NCBI GenBank assembly: GCA_009784335.1
Contig: WRBX01000038.1
Coordinates: forward strand, 1-6,628
Origin: Oscillospiraceae bacterium
GTDB taxonomy: Bacteria > Bacillota_A > Clostridia > Monoglobales > WRBX01
Direction: 5' to 3'
DNA length: 6,628 nt
The translations under genes and the position numbers were made by a program. The notes beneath the pieces were generated by a model. That model made no database searches, was not told the DNA's origin, and was given only the letters and a program-made list of their open reading frames with translations. This document shows, piece after piece, positions 1 through 5,615 of the stretch. The first letter of the stretch is position 1. Each line of letters begins with the position of its first letter.

Positions 1-1046
1 CTCTCGAAATCGGTGTGGATTTTGCCGGCGGCGGCGGGGGCTTTGGTGCCCTCGGGAATAGTCCAGGCGCGCACTTCGGGCTTGCCGGCGGTGAGGTAGG
101 AGATTAGGCCGAGGAGGCTGTAGCCGGCGGAAATCATTTGGTCGAGGCCCGATTTTTCGATGCCGAGCTCGGCGAGGAATTCGGCTTTTTCGGCGCCATC
201 GAGGGCGGCGAGCTCTTCTTCGATGCGTGCGGAGATGATGACGGTTTCGGCGTTTTGGGAGTGGGCGAATTGAGATAGGTCATCGACATATTTGTTATTG
301 AACGCGGATGACGCGGATTGACGCGGATTTTGACTATTCTTCGAAGACGGGACGCCGAGGGCGGCGTCCCCTACGGTGCTACCCTGGCGCGCCCCTACGC
401 TTGCAGGGGAACCGATATCTTCTTCAGAAACATTGGCGACATAGATGACGGGCTTGAGGGTGAGGAGGTTGAAATCTTTGATAACTGCGAGCTCTTTATC
501 GGATAAATCGAGGCTTCGGGCATCGTTGCCGGCCTCAAGGGCGGTTTTGATTTTACCCGCGACATCGAGGTTGAATTGGTATTTTTTATCGGCTTTGAGC
601 ATTTTTTCATTCTTATCTATTATTTTTCCAATAGTTTCCAAATCGGCGAAAATCAGCTCAAGGCGGATGGTTTCGATATCGCGGAGTGGATCGGCGCTGC
701 CTTCGACATGGACGACATTGGGATCGTCGAAACACCGCACGACATGGGCGATTGCATCGACCTCGCGAATGTGCGAGAGGAATTTATTGCCCAGGCCCTC
801 GCCCTTGGATGCGCCCTTAACAAGCCCTGCGATATCGACAAATTCGATGATTGCATGGGTGATTTTATCGGGGAAGAACATTTCGGCGAGCTTATCGATG
901 CGCGAATCGGGCACCGTTGCTACGCCGATATTTGGCTCGATGGTGCAGAAAGGGTAGTTGGCCGCTTCGGCTGCACCCGATTTGGTTATTGCGTTGAACA
1001 ATGTTGATTTGCCTACATTGGGTAGGCCGACTATGCCGATTTTCAT
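1..1046 (-). CDS. ychF: YchF/OLA1-family ATPase, 3' end cut by window edge
   Basis: YchF is a ribosome-associated P-loop NTPase of the Obg/TRAFAC group that prefers ATP and is linked to translation and stress responses. Of the protein, 348 residues are visible. G1 is GLPNVGKST (residues 7-15), G2 lies around FCTIEPN (33-39), G3 is DIAG (71-74), and the G4 position is NVSE (205-208), the NxxE variant that marks the ATP-preferring YchF/OLA1 branch. The conserved stretch TAGKPEVRAWTIPEG and the start of the TGS domain (AAGKIHTDFE) follow, and roughly the last 50 residues lie beyond the left edge. The ATG is preceded by AGAAGGAA. It is oddly long because residues about 212-249 are an extra Gly/Ala/Ser-rich segment encoded by repeat DNA, directly after G4. 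The frame stays open throughout. The gene lies 18 bp downstream of the small membrane protein gene, so co-transcription is likely. Family assignment is near certain. Confidence 0.95.
   Translation of the reverse strand, partial: MKIGIVGLPNVGKSTLFNAITKSGAAEAANYPFCTIEPNIGVATVPDSRIDKLAEMFFPDKITHAIIEFVDIAGLVKGASKGEGLGNKFLSHIREVDAIAHVVRCFDDPNVVHVEGSADPLRDIETIRLELIFADLETIGKIIDKNEKMLKADKKYQFNLDVAGKIKTALEAGNDARSLDLSDKELAVIKDFNLLTLKPVIYVANVSEEDIGSPASVGARQGSTVGDAALGVPSSKNSQNPRQSASSAFNNKYVDDLSQFAHSQNAETVIISARIEEELAALDGAEKAEFLAELGIEKSGLDQMISAGYSLLGLISYLTAGKPEVRAWTIPEGTKAPAAAGKIHTDFE
302..328. repeat. Triple ACGCGGAT direct repeat in ychF
   Basis: The unit ACGCGGAT occurs at 302-309, 311-318 and 321-328, at spacings of 9 and 10 bases. 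On the coding strand it reads as repeated ATCCGCGT units and encodes part of the Ser/Gln/Arg-rich end of the YchF insertion. The spacing is not a multiple of three, so the units are read in different frames. This argues against a protein-level repeat and for a DNA repeat. Confidence 0.75.
349..374 (-). repeat. REP-like palindrome d, inside ychF
   Basis: On the minus strand this reads GTAG (374-371), arm GGGACGCC, loop GCCCTC, arm GGCGTCCC (356-349), followed by GT. The 8-bp stem is perfect. It matches the layout of the three copies around the transposase gene but with different, still complementary, stem bases. It is translated within ychF (about residues 224-232). Confidence 0.8.
386..409 (-). 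repeat. Degenerate REP-like half element in ychF
   Basis: On the minus strand GTAG (398-395) is followed by GGGCGCGCC, the expected left arm of the same family. The matching right arm is not present; instead the sequence runs into the next GTAG element after about 20 bases. A separate 5-bp hairpin (CCCCT at 392-396 with AGGGG at 405-409) overlaps it. It probably represents a decayed or truncated copy. Confidence 0.45.
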
Positions 1047-1354: not shown

Positions 1355-1903
1355 TTATTCATTATAGAATTGCTTTATATCCCAATTGTGTGGGTTGTAT
1401 TCGATATACTCCCAAATGCGCACTAGATTTTTTTCATCTCGCACAACATGGTCATAAAACCCTCTTTGAAACACTTTTCCCATAGTAATGCCCTTTTTCT
1501 TGAATTCCTTCAACCATGCATTAGCTACCAAAGATTTATATGTGCCGACGATTTTTGCCATCGTAGGGGCGACCCTTGCGGTCGCCCGTTCATTATCTAC
1601 AGAGTATAGAATATGAATATGATTTGGCATAATAATGTGGTTAACTATTTCGATATTAAATCTTTCGCTTATAATTTCTATGTGTTCTTCGCAAATTTTA
1701 CCTAAGGGAGTTAGTGCAATAATAGGGCGTTCGTCTGTTTGCGGGCGAGGGCAAGCCTCGCCCCTACGAACTTCACCGAACATGCTTCTCATTTTGTCGG
1801 TGCATATCGTTACGAAATATGCTCCATTTTGCGAATAATCATAATCCGGAATTCTATTCGGTTTGCGCTTGGGGAGTTTGGGTGTAGCTTGTTCTTCAAT
1901 CAT
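1355..1903 (-). CDS. REP-associated tyrosine transposase (RAYT, Y1/HUH family)
   Basis: This is a 182-residue single-strand DNA nickase-type transposase related to IS200/IS605 TnpA. RAYTs are domesticated single-copy relatives thought to process or spread REP palindromes. The N-terminus has the typical opening NRIPDYDYSQNGAYFVTICT (residues 16-35). The metal-binding HUH motif is H95-I96-H97 in NHIIMPNHIHIL. The distal part has FQRGFYDHVVRDEKNLVRIWEYIEYNP, where Y166 is the likely nucleophile. Two GTAG palindromes are translated in frame, at residues 46-54 (RRGEACPRP) and 106-114 (RATARVAPT), both in variable segments outside the catalytic motifs. The gene looks intact. The ATG follows AAGAAGAGAG. 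It begins 60 bp after the mreB stop on the same strand, with a third palindrome between them, so it may be read from the mreB transcript. Confidence 0.9.
   Translation of the reverse strand: MIEEQATPKLPKRKPNRIPDYDYSQNGAYFVTICTDKMRSMFGEVRRGEACPRPQTDERPIIALTPLGKICEEHIEIISERFNIEIVNHIIMPNHIHILYSVDNERATARVAPTMAKIVGTYKSLVANAWLKEFKKKGITMGKVFQRGFYDHVVRDEKNLVRIWEYIEYNPHNWDIKQFYNE
1563..1587 (+). repeat. REP-like palindrome a, inside the RAYT gene
   Basis: On the plus strand: GTAG (1563-1566), arm GGGCGACC (1567-1574), loop CTTGC, arm GGTCGCCC (1580-1587), then GTT. The 8-bp stem is perfect. RAYT-associated REPs are known for a GTAG or GGAG tetranucleotide 5' of the hairpin, which fits. It is antisense to the gene and encodes residues 106-114. 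Confidence 0.88.
1743..1767 (-). repeat. REP-like palindrome b, inside the RAYT gene
   Basis: On the minus strand: GTAG (1767-1764), arm GGGCGAGG, loop CTTGC, arm CCTCGCCC (1750-1743), then GC. It has the same loop as copy a, but two adjacent stem pairs are switched on both arms, so pairing is preserved. It is in the sense orientation of the RAYT gene and encodes residues 46-54. Confidence 0.88.
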
Positions 1904-1935
1904 TGTTGGCTCTCTTCTTTTTGATTGTGTCGCAC

Positions 1936-1960
1936 GGGCGACCGCAAGGGTCGCCCCTAC
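1936..1960 (-). repeat. REP-like palindrome c, between mreB and RAYT
   Basis: On the minus strand: GTAG (1960-1957), arm GGGCGACC, loop CTTGC, arm GGTCGCCC (1943-1936), then GTG. It is identical over 29 bases (1934-1962) to the inverted copy at 1561-1589. It lies 3 bases past the mreB stop codon and 32 bases before the RAYT ATG, so it sits in the 3' end of the mreB message and the leader of the RAYT message. No T-run follows on the minus strand, so it is not a classical intrinsic terminator. Confidence 0.88.
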
Positions 1961-1963
1961 GAG

Positions 1964-3140: not shown

Positions 3141-3821
3141 TTATGTTAGTCTTCTTCCTTTGCGGTTGATTGTTATTTCTGAAACCTCTATTTGTTTTGG
3201 TAAATTCAATAAATATAGTATCACTTCTGCTATGTCTGATGGGTTCATCCATGCGTCTGGGTCTTCGATAATTGCGCCATAATCTTTGAAATGCATTTTG
3301 GTATTCATTCCGCCACAGTGGACATAAATCATTCTGGATTTTGTTTTTTTAAGCTCCATCCCGATATTATATGAGCCACCTTTTAGCCCATGTTTTGTTG
3401 AGGTGTAGGCAAGTTGTTCTGGGAAGCCTGGTGTTAAATCTGCTGTTGTGCCGATTTGCAATATATCTGCCTCGTTCTGAACTATTTGGTCGAATAGTAG
3501 CGACAACAAAAATAGCGGACCAATGGTGTTCACTTTCCAAGCGCGCTCGAATTTTTCGTAGGTGATTTCGTTAATCTTTTCAAGTGCGACAATAGCAGCA
3601 CAATTGATTATCGCATTGAAATCTGCGAAGTTTTCTTTGATATATTTAGCGACATTTTCTAAATCTTTTTCGCTTACCAAATCGCAAGCGAGATTTTGAA
3701 CGCCCTTAATATCGCAAGGGGTGCGGCTTAGGTTTAGCACTTCCATTCCATTATTGATGCAGAGATTTGCGGTTGCTTTGCCCAGCCCATCGCTTCCGCC
3801 TACTATTATCACTTTTTTCAT
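3141..3821 (-). CDS. Short-chain dehydrogenase/reductase (SDR)
   Basis: This is a 226-residue classical SDR, a soluble NAD(P)-dependent oxidoreductase of unknown substrate. The Rossmann glycine motif is GGSDGLG (8-14), the NNAG equivalent is NCAA (73-76), the structural Asn is N98 (KVNTIG), and the catalytic YxxxK is Y139-TST-K143. Thr126 occupies the usual catalytic Ser position, 13 residues before Tyr139. The length is a little short for the family (about 250). I chose the ATG at 3821 because it follows AGGAAAGGAA (3836-3827) and starts directly with the Rossmann strand MKKVIIVGG. The longer in-frame start at 3893 adds 24 basic residues that merely overlap the upstream gene. The start overlaps the upstream stop as ATGA, which suggests translational coupling. 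It is the last gene of the metK operon and is AT-rich. Confidence 0.88.
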   Translation of the reverse strand: MKKVIIVGGSDGLGKATANLCINNGMEVLNLSRTPCDIKGVQNLACDLVSEKDLENVAKYIKENFADFNAIINCAAIVALEKINEITYEKFERAWKVNTIGPLFLLSLLFDQIVQNEADILQIGTTADLTPGFPEQLAYTSTKHGLKGGSYNIGMELKKTKSRMIYVHCGGMNTKMHFKDYGAIIEDPDAWMNPSDIAEVILYLLNLPKQIEVSEITINRKGRRLT

Positions 3822-4102
3822 GTTAATTCCTTTCCTACTCTGAGGATATGTTCTTTTAAGTCTTCGTTTTGGATTGAATCGAAATAGAGGCAATCGAATT
3901 TGTAGGGGGTGGGGAGTTCGTCGAGCTCGGAGGCGAGCTTGGCGGCGACATCGCTTGGTGCCCAGATTGCGATGTCGATATCTGAATTTGGCTTGAAATT
4001 GCCTTTTGCGCGCGAACCAAAGATAGCGGCTTTTTCAATACCAAGCTTTTTGATTTCATCTCGAATTAGTTTTAAATGCTCGCTTGAAAGGCCAAAATCC
4101 AT
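3818..4102 (-). CDS. MntA-like minimal nucleotidyltransferase (MNT domain)
   Basis: This is a 94-residue minimal nucleotidyltransferase of the DNA polymerase beta superfamily, the size typical of HI0073/MntA proteins. The catalytic signature is complete: G29-S30, ten residues, then D41-I-D43 (the GSX10DXD motif), with D70 in KFDCLYFD as the probable third metal-binding carboxylate. In HepT/MntA systems the MNT protein adds AMP units to a Tyr on its HEPN partner and so neutralises it; in HI0073/HI0074 pairs the substrate is not established. The ATG follows AAGGGAG at 8 bases and overlaps the partner's stop as TAATG, while its own TGA overlaps the SDR start as ATGA. An antitoxin-type role is inference from the partner's motif. 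Confidence 0.88.
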   Translation of the reverse strand: MDFGLSSEHLKLIRDEIKKLGIEKAAIFGSRAKGNFKPNSDIDIAIWAPSDVAAKLASELDELPTPYKFDCLYFDSIQNEDLKEHILRVGKELT

Positions 4103-4506
4103 TATAGTTGCTCCCTTAGATAATCACATAGTTTGCTGATAACGGGCTGGTATTCGTTTTTAATCTTAGCAAATATTTCATTGAATTTTTCTTCATCATA
4201 AAGGTGCGACATTGTGTTTCTGCTTTCCAACATATCAATGAAAACTTGGCCGCCCTCAATAACTCCTGCCGAAAATGCCTCTTTGACAACTGAGCGAGGA
4301 GTTATCGTAGGGATATTATTACCTAAATAATCTAAGAAATCTTTTAAGGTTTTCCAAGCTAATTCAAAAGTAACTTCAAAGCGTTGGATAAATCCTTCTC
4401 TCTCTAGTTTGGGAGAGTTCTCATCAAAATCAACTATTTCTGCCAATAGCTTTTCAGCTTTTTCTAAATTTTGAAAGCGTTGCTTCCAGCGGATATCTTT
4501 TTCCAT
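4102..4506 (-). CDS. HI0074/HepT-like nucleotidyltransferase partner (HEPN-type helical protein)
   Basis: This is a 134-residue all-helical protein of the nucleotidyltransferase substrate-binding family (HI0074 type). The family hallmark FEVTFELAWKTLKDFLDYLG is at residues 43-62. R96-NTMS-H101-L-Y103 gives the RX4HXY motif (bases 4221-4198) seen in HEPN RNases such as HepT, in which the Arg and His are needed for RNA cleavage and the Tyr is AMPylated by the MNT partner. I chose the ATG at 4506, which has AAAGGA 7 bases upstream; the ATG at 4524 (six more residues) overlaps that site. The start overlaps the metK stop (TAATG), and the stop overlaps the nucleotidyltransferase start (TAATG). It may be an RNase toxin, or only a substrate-presenting subunit. 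Codon use is AT-rich compared with metK. Confidence 0.85.
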   Translation of the reverse strand: MEKDIRWKQRFQNLEKAEKLLAEIVDFDENSPKLEREGFIQRFEVTFELAWKTLKDFLDYLGNNIPTITPRSVVKEAFSAGVIEGGQVFIDMLESRNTMSHLYDEEKFNEIFAKIKNEYQPVISKLCDYLREQL

Positions 4507-5615
4507 TATACTATCCTTTCCCATGTGAATTCTTCGCGGCCGAAGTGGCCGTAGGTGGCGGTGGATTTGTAGATTGGGTTTAGCAGGTCGAGGGTGGCGA
4601 TTATTCCGCGGGGGGAGAGGTCGAATGTGGTGCGAATATATTTCTCGATTTCTGGGAGGGGGATTTTTTCGGTGCCGTCGGTTTCAATCATCATAGAAAC
4701 GGGTTCGGAGATGCCGATTGCGTAGGCCAGTTGCAGCTCACATTCATCTGCCATGCCTTGCGCCACGATGTTTTTGGCGATAAAGCGCGCCATATATGCA
4801 GCTGAGCGATCGACCTTGGTTGGATCCTTGCCGGAAAATGCGCCGCCGCCGTGGCAGGCATATCCGCCGTATGTATCAACGATGATTTTGCGCCCGGTGA
4901 GGCCGCAATCGGCAGCCGGGCCGCCTCGCACAAACGCACCGGTGGGGTTGGTGATAATCTTGGTGTTTTGCATAAGGTTTTCAGGAATGACGGGGTTTAT
5001 CACTTCTTTTATAATATCTTCGCGGATTTCATCTTGGGTGGCTTTTGGCGAGTGCTGAGTTGAGACAACGATTGTGTCCACCCGAACAGGAGTTTTGCCG
5101 TTATATTCAACTGAAACTTGGGTTTTTCCATCGGGGCGCAGATATTCCAAAGTGCCATCTTTGCGCACATCTGCCAGCTGCTTTGCCAGCTTATGCGCCA
5201 GGCTAATCGGCAGCGGCATAAGCTCGGGAGTTTGATTACAGGCATAGCCGAACATCATGCCCTGATCGCCCGCGCCGCCTCGCGTATCATTAGTGCCTAG
5301 GGCGATATCAGGCGATTGCTCATTGATTGCGGTTAGCACCGAGCAGCTTTCGCCGTCGAAGCCATATTTAGCGCGATTATAGCCGATATCCAGGATAGTT
5401 TGGCGGGTTATTTTGGGGATATCTACATACGCATCGGTGGTGACCTCGCCCATAACAAGCACAAGGCCGGTGGAAACTGCGGCCTCCACAGCCACGCGCG
5501 CCGATTTATCCTCGGCGATAATGGCATCGAGGATGCTATCGGAAATTTGATCGCAGATTTTATCGGGGTGCCCTTCGGTGACTGATTCGGATGTGAAAAT
5601 ATAGTTTTGGTTCAT
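4506..5615 (-). CDS. metK: S-adenosylmethionine synthetase
   Basis: MetK makes S-adenosylmethionine from methionine and ATP in the cytoplasm and works as a tetramer. The 369 residues carry GHPDK (15-19), the GAGDQG loop (114-119), TQHSP, the Gly-rich ATP signature GGGAFSGKD (256-264) and KVDRSAAY. It is somewhat shorter than typical family members of about 385-400, because the segment before GAGDQG is short (LGTNDTRG) and the C-terminus ends soon after YGHFGR. The start at 5615 gives the standard opening [20 protein letters not shown] longer in-frame ATG at 5726 would translate the promoter and a hairpin repeat and is rejected. There is no Shine-Dalgarno site before 5615; a TATATT box ends 6 bases upstream of the ATG. 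No SAM riboswitch fits in the leader. It is the first gene of an operon with three overlapping downstream genes. Confidence 0.96.

Follow-up and report, generated by a model that had tools for sequence, protein, structure and literature searches.

The stretch of DNA analysed here (the window, 6,628 nucleotides) carries on its minus strand, at positions 1355 to 1903, a reading frame of 182 amino acids without internal stops, and the evidence of the ORF, Pfam, NCBIfam, profile comparison, an AlphaFold2 model and Foldseek identifies it as a RAYT/TnpA_REP-like Y1 gene. The HUH motif lies within PNHIHI and the presumed catalytic tyrosine within WEYIEYNP. A preliminary description had already called this a RAYT gene of the HUH/Y1 type, and the call is borne out by the match to Pfam Y1_Tnp (1.8e-8) and by the top PDB sequence match by profile, 4er8, the TnpA_REP of E. 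coli (E 1.1e-9). The score against the NCBIfam model REP_Tyr_transpos is 66.1 bits, below a curated cutoff of 80 that is the threshold of one model and does not define the RAYT family. The AlphaFold2 model has a mean pLDDT of 83.9, and a Foldseek search with it placed the TnpA proteins of IS608 and ISDra2 at the top and 4er8 at rank 27. In a 46-row alignment of relatives H94, H96, Y165 and N169 are unvarying. The residues conserved across the REP-linked TnpA_REP subclasses are W94, Q95, E100, H101 and R104 in E. coli numbering; by eye, in the profile alignment, Q95, H101 and R104 are retained, W94 is replaced by F and E100 by D. The signature of class 2, Y---NP (Quentin et al. 2018, PMC6006769), is present as YIEYNP. 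As a RAYT, the enzyme would be expected to cleave its cognate single-stranded REP. Elsewhere in the window, the MreB sequence comes closest, among 25 genomes compared, to that of Flavonifractor sp. An10 (68% identity), and the host probably belongs to Clostridia; positions 3818 to 4524 hold two overlapping ORFs which we take to resemble a small nucleotidyltransferase (MNT) and a HEPN-like partner, the MNT/HEPN pair being a known toxin-antitoxin type.

Three GTAG-headed palindromes at the RAYT locus had been described at 1563-1587, 1743-1767 and 1936-1960, and their coordinates and frames were verified. Two of them are indeed translated within the intact ORF, as residues 46-54 and 106-114 and without a stop, and a candidate substrate does lie, with the frame kept, inside the enzyme's own coding sequence. 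The loop 1 REP (1743 to 1767, minus strand, residues 46-54) has its GTAG head 5' on the coding strand and falls between strand 1 and helix A; the loop 2 REP (1563 to 1587, plus strand, residues 106-114) is inverted with respect to it and follows the HUH strand; and the upstream REP (1936 to 1960, minus strand) is oriented as the loop 1 REP and lies outside the ORF, with the ATG 33 nt away. Over 29 nt (1561-1589 and 1934-1962) the upstream REP repeats the loop 2 REP in inverted orientation without a mismatch, and loop 1 matches loop 2 at 86% over 28 nt, the difference within the 25-nt REP amounting to two swapped stem base pairs. The stem opens with three G-C pairs (GTAGGGGC...GCCC). Single-strand DNA folds of the three palindromes, on both strands, gave z values of -2.6 to -3.8. 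The whole window contains four GTAG-headed hairpins; 500 dinucleotide shuffles of it gave 0.148 on average and never more than 2.

The fourth hairpin, at 349 to 374 on the minus strand, was missed by the preliminary description. It is of another REP type and is translated in frame, as VGDAALGVP, within an extra segment of ychF (300 to 419, minus strand, residues about 210-249) that is absent from H. influenzae YchF 1jal: in the alignment, residues 209 to 250 of the query stand opposite residues 211 to 215 of the 1jal chain, leaving about 37 extra residues. A short direct repeat, acgcggat, also occurs three times in this segment, at 302-328. The idea that such elements insert into coding DNA with the frame preserved is thus supported, both by ychF and by Di Nocera et al. 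2013 (PMC3733652), who found REPs inside many genes. As in ychF, their intragenic GTAG REPs are translated in frame in ordinary genes; the portions of that paper drawn on here differ in leaving RAYT genes unmentioned as hosts of inner REPs. Some extra segments of housekeeping proteins, and likewise the variable loops of the RAYT family, would then be translated REP DNA.

Inverted REPs in the coding sequences of relatives

A protein search returned 5422 relatives, 120 of which were aligned. In many of these 120 the REP-coded segments fall, by eye, at the same two places, and the two loops carry such peptide pairs as RRGDPCGRP with RATARVAPT, VGQGLAPAE with AGASPCPT and VGDGSPVPK with GTGNPSPT. 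GTDB genomes contained 488 relatives, and DNA was taken for the best 80 of these. Scored against the reverse-complemented loop 2, loop 1 reached 16.3 when both came from the same gene and 7.6 when they came from different genes (81 genes), the maximum of 2000 permutations being 9.0. A profile search of the collected loci then yielded 101 distinct full-length genes, the full-length rule having dropped eight of 80 named loci, among them several whose REP-coded loops are long.

The hairpin scan covered the genes and their flanks and required GTAG together with a stem of 8 bp or more, in which one mismatch was allowed. There were 148 such hairpins in 49.7 kb of RAYT coding sequence (2.98 per kb) and 118 in the 574 kb of the loci more than 600 nt away (0.21 per kb); the 250-nt stretches next to the genes held 59 in 25.3 kb upstream and 42 in 25.0 kb downstream. 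The number of hairpins per gene was 1.47 in the 101 real sequences and 0.008 after shuffling. The order and orientation of the inner hairpins was +- in 59 of the 101 genes, - alone in 11, +-- in three, -+ in three, + in two and ++ in one, with none in 22. The pair spans loops 1 and 2 in 56 of the 62 genes with +- or +--, lying entirely in loop 2 in five and entirely in loop 1 in one (L059). A second sample, drawn from 61 genomes of the family of G017 (itself included), 16 of which gave a match, added 22 full-length genes, 17 of them with +-, three with none, one with - and one with +. Over both samples, 73 of 123 genes carry two REPs in inverted orientation, with the GTAG heads pointing outward, in two fixed loops between which the HUH codons lie; since the search profile was built from loop-bearing relatives and many genes share genomes, in both samples, these shares do not represent RAYTs at large. 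Clostridia account for 47 of the 73 named genes among the 123, and for 32 of the 35 named genes with a pair in loops 1 and 2. Several REP units may occupy one loop, five in loop 1 of L051 (1271-1909) and three in loop 2 of L052 (5001-5600), as units or half units and in frame. In three other genes (L073, L075, L076) two inverted REPs are found in loop 2 only, and loop 1 is short.

It had been proposed that the palindromes would lose their significance if homologues encoded the same residues without them. Mostly the opposite was found, in that many homologues keep palindromes at the same loops and change the residues; yet 22 of the 101 genes lack inner ones. That the palindromes originate at the protein level was likewise rejected: residues vary, palindromes persist. 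The description of the arrangement as unusual did not hold within this family. According to Quentin et al. 2018 (PMC6006769), tnpA_REP genes of subclass 2.4 hold REPs with the frame unbroken, generally between HUH and Y, as a "unique feature" of the subclass, so that the basic oddity was already known. The genes studied here resemble subclass 2.4, or RAYT group 4, in their in-frame inner REPs, in stems that start with three G-C pairs, and in the occurrence in some relatives of double-foot REPs (GTAG...CTAC; here in L050, L056, L062 and L065); the window gene itself shows both the inner REPs in an unbroken frame and the three G-C start. Subclass 2.4 is described as abundant in Cyanobacteria and Bacteroidetes, whereas the named genes here are largely from Clostridia.

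Likeness of the two copies within a gene

Matching was assessed in the 74 genes in which a REP in loop 1 has an inverted partner, one of these pairs lying wholly in loop 1. The mean identity of the two REPs of a gene was 0.948, against 0.607 for REPs of different genes, and the maximum of 10,000 permutations was 0.672; 33 of the 74 pairs are identical and 63 reach at least 0.9. The likeness exceeds that between near relatives. When each gene was compared with its nearest relative by core protein, the mean identity of its own pair (0.948) was higher than that of the REPs in the same loop of the two genes (0.826), own identity being above in 42 of the 74 genes, equal in 18 and below in 14 (Wilcoxon 1.7e-6, the rows not being independent). 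The difference was large, 0.934 against 0.672, where core identity to the nearest relative is 45-60% (25 genes), and smaller, 0.956 against 0.904, where it is at least 60% (49 genes).

Among 40 pairs of equal length that are not identical, 28 stem positions had changed on both sides with pairing intact, 20 were one-sided, two were two-sided but unpaired, and 12 differences fell in head or loop positions. Unlike REPs (0.70-0.77) are found in L007, L027, L030, L086, L129 and L163, and matching is therefore not obligatory. L129 and L163 are related and have nearly the same unlike pair, so a difference between the REPs of the two loops can persist for a while.

There are 54 distinct loop 1 REPs among the 74 genes, and the minimum number of changes on the core tree is 54, where the floor is 53; these counts are rough, as the tree has 132 columns and 57 of its 120 inner branches are open. 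Genes with more similar cores tend to have more similar REPs, but the trend is weak (Spearman, in a Mantel test, 0.15; maximum of 999 permutations 0.12). With 54 types, 54 changes and types that mostly arose once and follow the gene, frequent replacement of the inner REPs by unrelated genomic REPs was dropped as an explanation. The two positions thus persist, a REP is for the most part inherited with its gene, and the copies of a pair change without losing their resemblance to each other.

Flanking and dispersed REPs

RAYT genes have been reported to be flanked by inverted REPs (Nunvar et al. 2010, PMC2817692). Under a rule that asked for at least 0.7 identity, with relaxed heads and the HUH codons in between, 92 of the 123 genes have a matched inverted pair and 31 have none; the threshold is also reached by 18% of pairs in which the two REPs come from different genes. 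The 92 pairs comprise 71 in loops 1 and 2, 11 with an upstream copy and one in loop 2 (the window gene among them), eight with an upstream and a downstream copy, and two with one copy in loop 1 and one downstream. Of 61 genes that hold an inner pair, 16 have a GTAG hairpin of any type within 250 nt; of 35 genes with a single inner hairpin or none, 27 do (Fisher 1.7e-6, the flanking REP type being free to differ). With kinship taken into account, nine independent pairs remain, of which on average 0.5 go the same way and 5.6 opposite (median p 0.0625), a result in the same direction as the uncorrected count. Inner pairs thus tend to replace flanking REPs, the tendency being borderline once kinship is considered.

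Copies elsewhere in the hosts were counted for five REP types, hand-picked from carriers and the window, in 24 host genomes, with in-gene copies subtracted. At least three copies outside the genes were present in 13 of 16 combinations of genome and type in which a full-length RAYT of the genome carries the type, and in 11 of 104 in which none does (Fisher 1.2e-8, types and genomes not being independent). The three carriers below this number are G001, for one type, and G008 and G023, for another. Host genomes usually, but not always, hold dispersed copies of the REP of their own RAYT. The type shared by L034 and L058 was confined to their two genomes of the 24 (27 and 8 copies), and all 24 listed copies (of 55) in G017 share the single-base variant present in its own RAYT. 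The window type, sought in 32 genomes, occurs in G002 (14 copies), G089 (23), G012 (3), G086 (2) and G090 (1). The RAYT of G002, L081, bears it twice; in G089 a RAYT with this REP was expected and was not found, its two full-length RAYTs carrying other types. The 11 further combinations noted above likewise have REPs without a matching full-length RAYT. In G089, G011 and G019 there are many REPs of a type without such a gene, which may reflect a lost gene, an incomplete assembly or shared use.

Origin and possible role of the inner pair

On balance, it is probable that the cognate REP pair of these RAYTs, whose activity on it is a prediction, has shifted from a flanking position to one within the coding sequence, where it has been kept matched. 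This reading draws on what is directly observed, namely the position and orientation of the copies, their match within a gene beyond that with near relatives, the two-sided stem changes and the partial exchange with the flanks. One REP would have settled between strand 1 and helix A and its inverted partner after the HUH strand, the window retaining a third copy upstream, and these two loops would have been used because peptide inserts are tolerated there. The arrangement may be compared with the classical REPtron of E. coli, Stenotrophomonas and Pseudomonas, which likewise has one RAYT, inverted cognate REPs and dispersed copies, but in which the pair forms the flanks, whereas here it is coding sequence. 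A REPIN or BIME also consists of two inverted REPs with heads outward; the spacer of the inner pair, in contrast, has a median of about 145 nt and encodes HUH, and the likeness is one of arrangement. The RAYTs of subclass 2.1 have been called REP-free.

Appreciable, though minority, weight has to be given to neutral tolerance, an account close to that of Quentin et al., under which REPs insert throughout the genome, only in-frame inserts in flexible loops survive, and the inner REPs have no function, the RAYT gene being struck more often since the enzyme acts near its own gene. Both loops are indeed lower-confidence segments of the AlphaFold2 model, REPs are known from other genes (PMC3733652), including ychF in the window, and loops with arrays of several units exist (L051, L052). 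From independent hits, however, one would not expect a fixed inverted order with heads outward, nor matching, two-sided stem changes and replacement of the flanks; conversion between copies could yield the matching, but not the fixed order.

We think it unlikely that the REPs serve to keep expression of the gene low, through putative self-nicking or through message hairpins that slow translation. Such a role would suit the presence of a recognisable REP on each strand, with the HUH codons in between, and TnpA_REP is known to cut single-stranded REPs beside the hairpin in vitro (Corneloup et al. 2021, PMC8266576). Against it stand the eight of 123 genes that have an upstream and a downstream copy, outside the coding sequence, which imply that the in-gene position is not needed.

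It is far less probable still that the REP-coded loop peptides form a code that reads the cognate REP. The peptides do vary with REP type, but the REPs are read in varied phases: the GTAG of loop 1 is in phase 0 in 70 of 74 genes, in phase 1 in four and in phase 2, where TAG is a stop, in none, and 13 of the 74 loop 2 REPs are off the majority phase. Mainly on account of these different phases the peptide code was rejected; in addition, the published model of subclass 2.4 puts the variable region away from the DNA (PMC6006769), and 22 of 101 genes lack an inner GTAG hairpin. Chance palindromes from GC-rich codons, for which no supporting point was found, have virtually no prospect of being the explanation and were rejected by the shuffles and by uniform synonymous recoding (codon usage unmatched), in which the match within a gene fell to 0.629 and the loop 1 stem survived in 3%.

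If the cognate pair has indeed moved inward from the flanks, each strand of the gene would present one REP, bindable when single-stranded, as is the case for REPINs and for RAYT genes with flanking REPs, and the enzyme would thereby stay tied to a working substrate. The copies may be kept alike by conversion of one by the other, or by conversion with genomic copies; alternatively, both may have to track the shifting specificity of the enzyme. Processing of single-stranded REPs in vitro has been described, and co-evolution of enzyme and REP argued, by Corneloup et al. 2021 (PMC8266576), where REP dissemination is said not to be understood. It is tempting, if more speculative, to suggest that the inner pair is a selected, heritable copy of the substrate, that a RAYT which moves brings seed REPs to its new host, and that inner copies and genomic REPs change together; this is a possibility we hold only tentatively. 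It agrees with the finding that gene and REP mostly share their descent. The presence of the pair at the same two spots in many related genes suggests joint inheritance of enzyme and target. The gene would then be a self-contained unit of enzyme plus template, in which the substrate could be lost only together with the core. The matched inner pair would also name the likely cognate REP from the RAYT gene alone, and inner pairs would supply many RAYT-REP combinations for tests of specificity; the hairpins can be recoded away with the protein unchanged, and a clean experiment is possible.

As far as the literature examined goes, in passages of main text, REPs within the gene are known, and a matched and oriented pair that replaces the flanking pair is undescribed. 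The main-text passages of Quentin et al. (PMC6006769) drawn on here mention neither a matched inverted pair at two loops, nor matching within a gene, nor exchange with the flanks. A search of titles and the beginnings of abstracts found no other paper that describes inner loops occupied by two matching REPs in inverted orientation.

In one of the host genomes, G018 (L132-L136), the REP of the RAYT recurs as five inverted pairs, 49 nt from start to start, in a REPIN-like arrangement.
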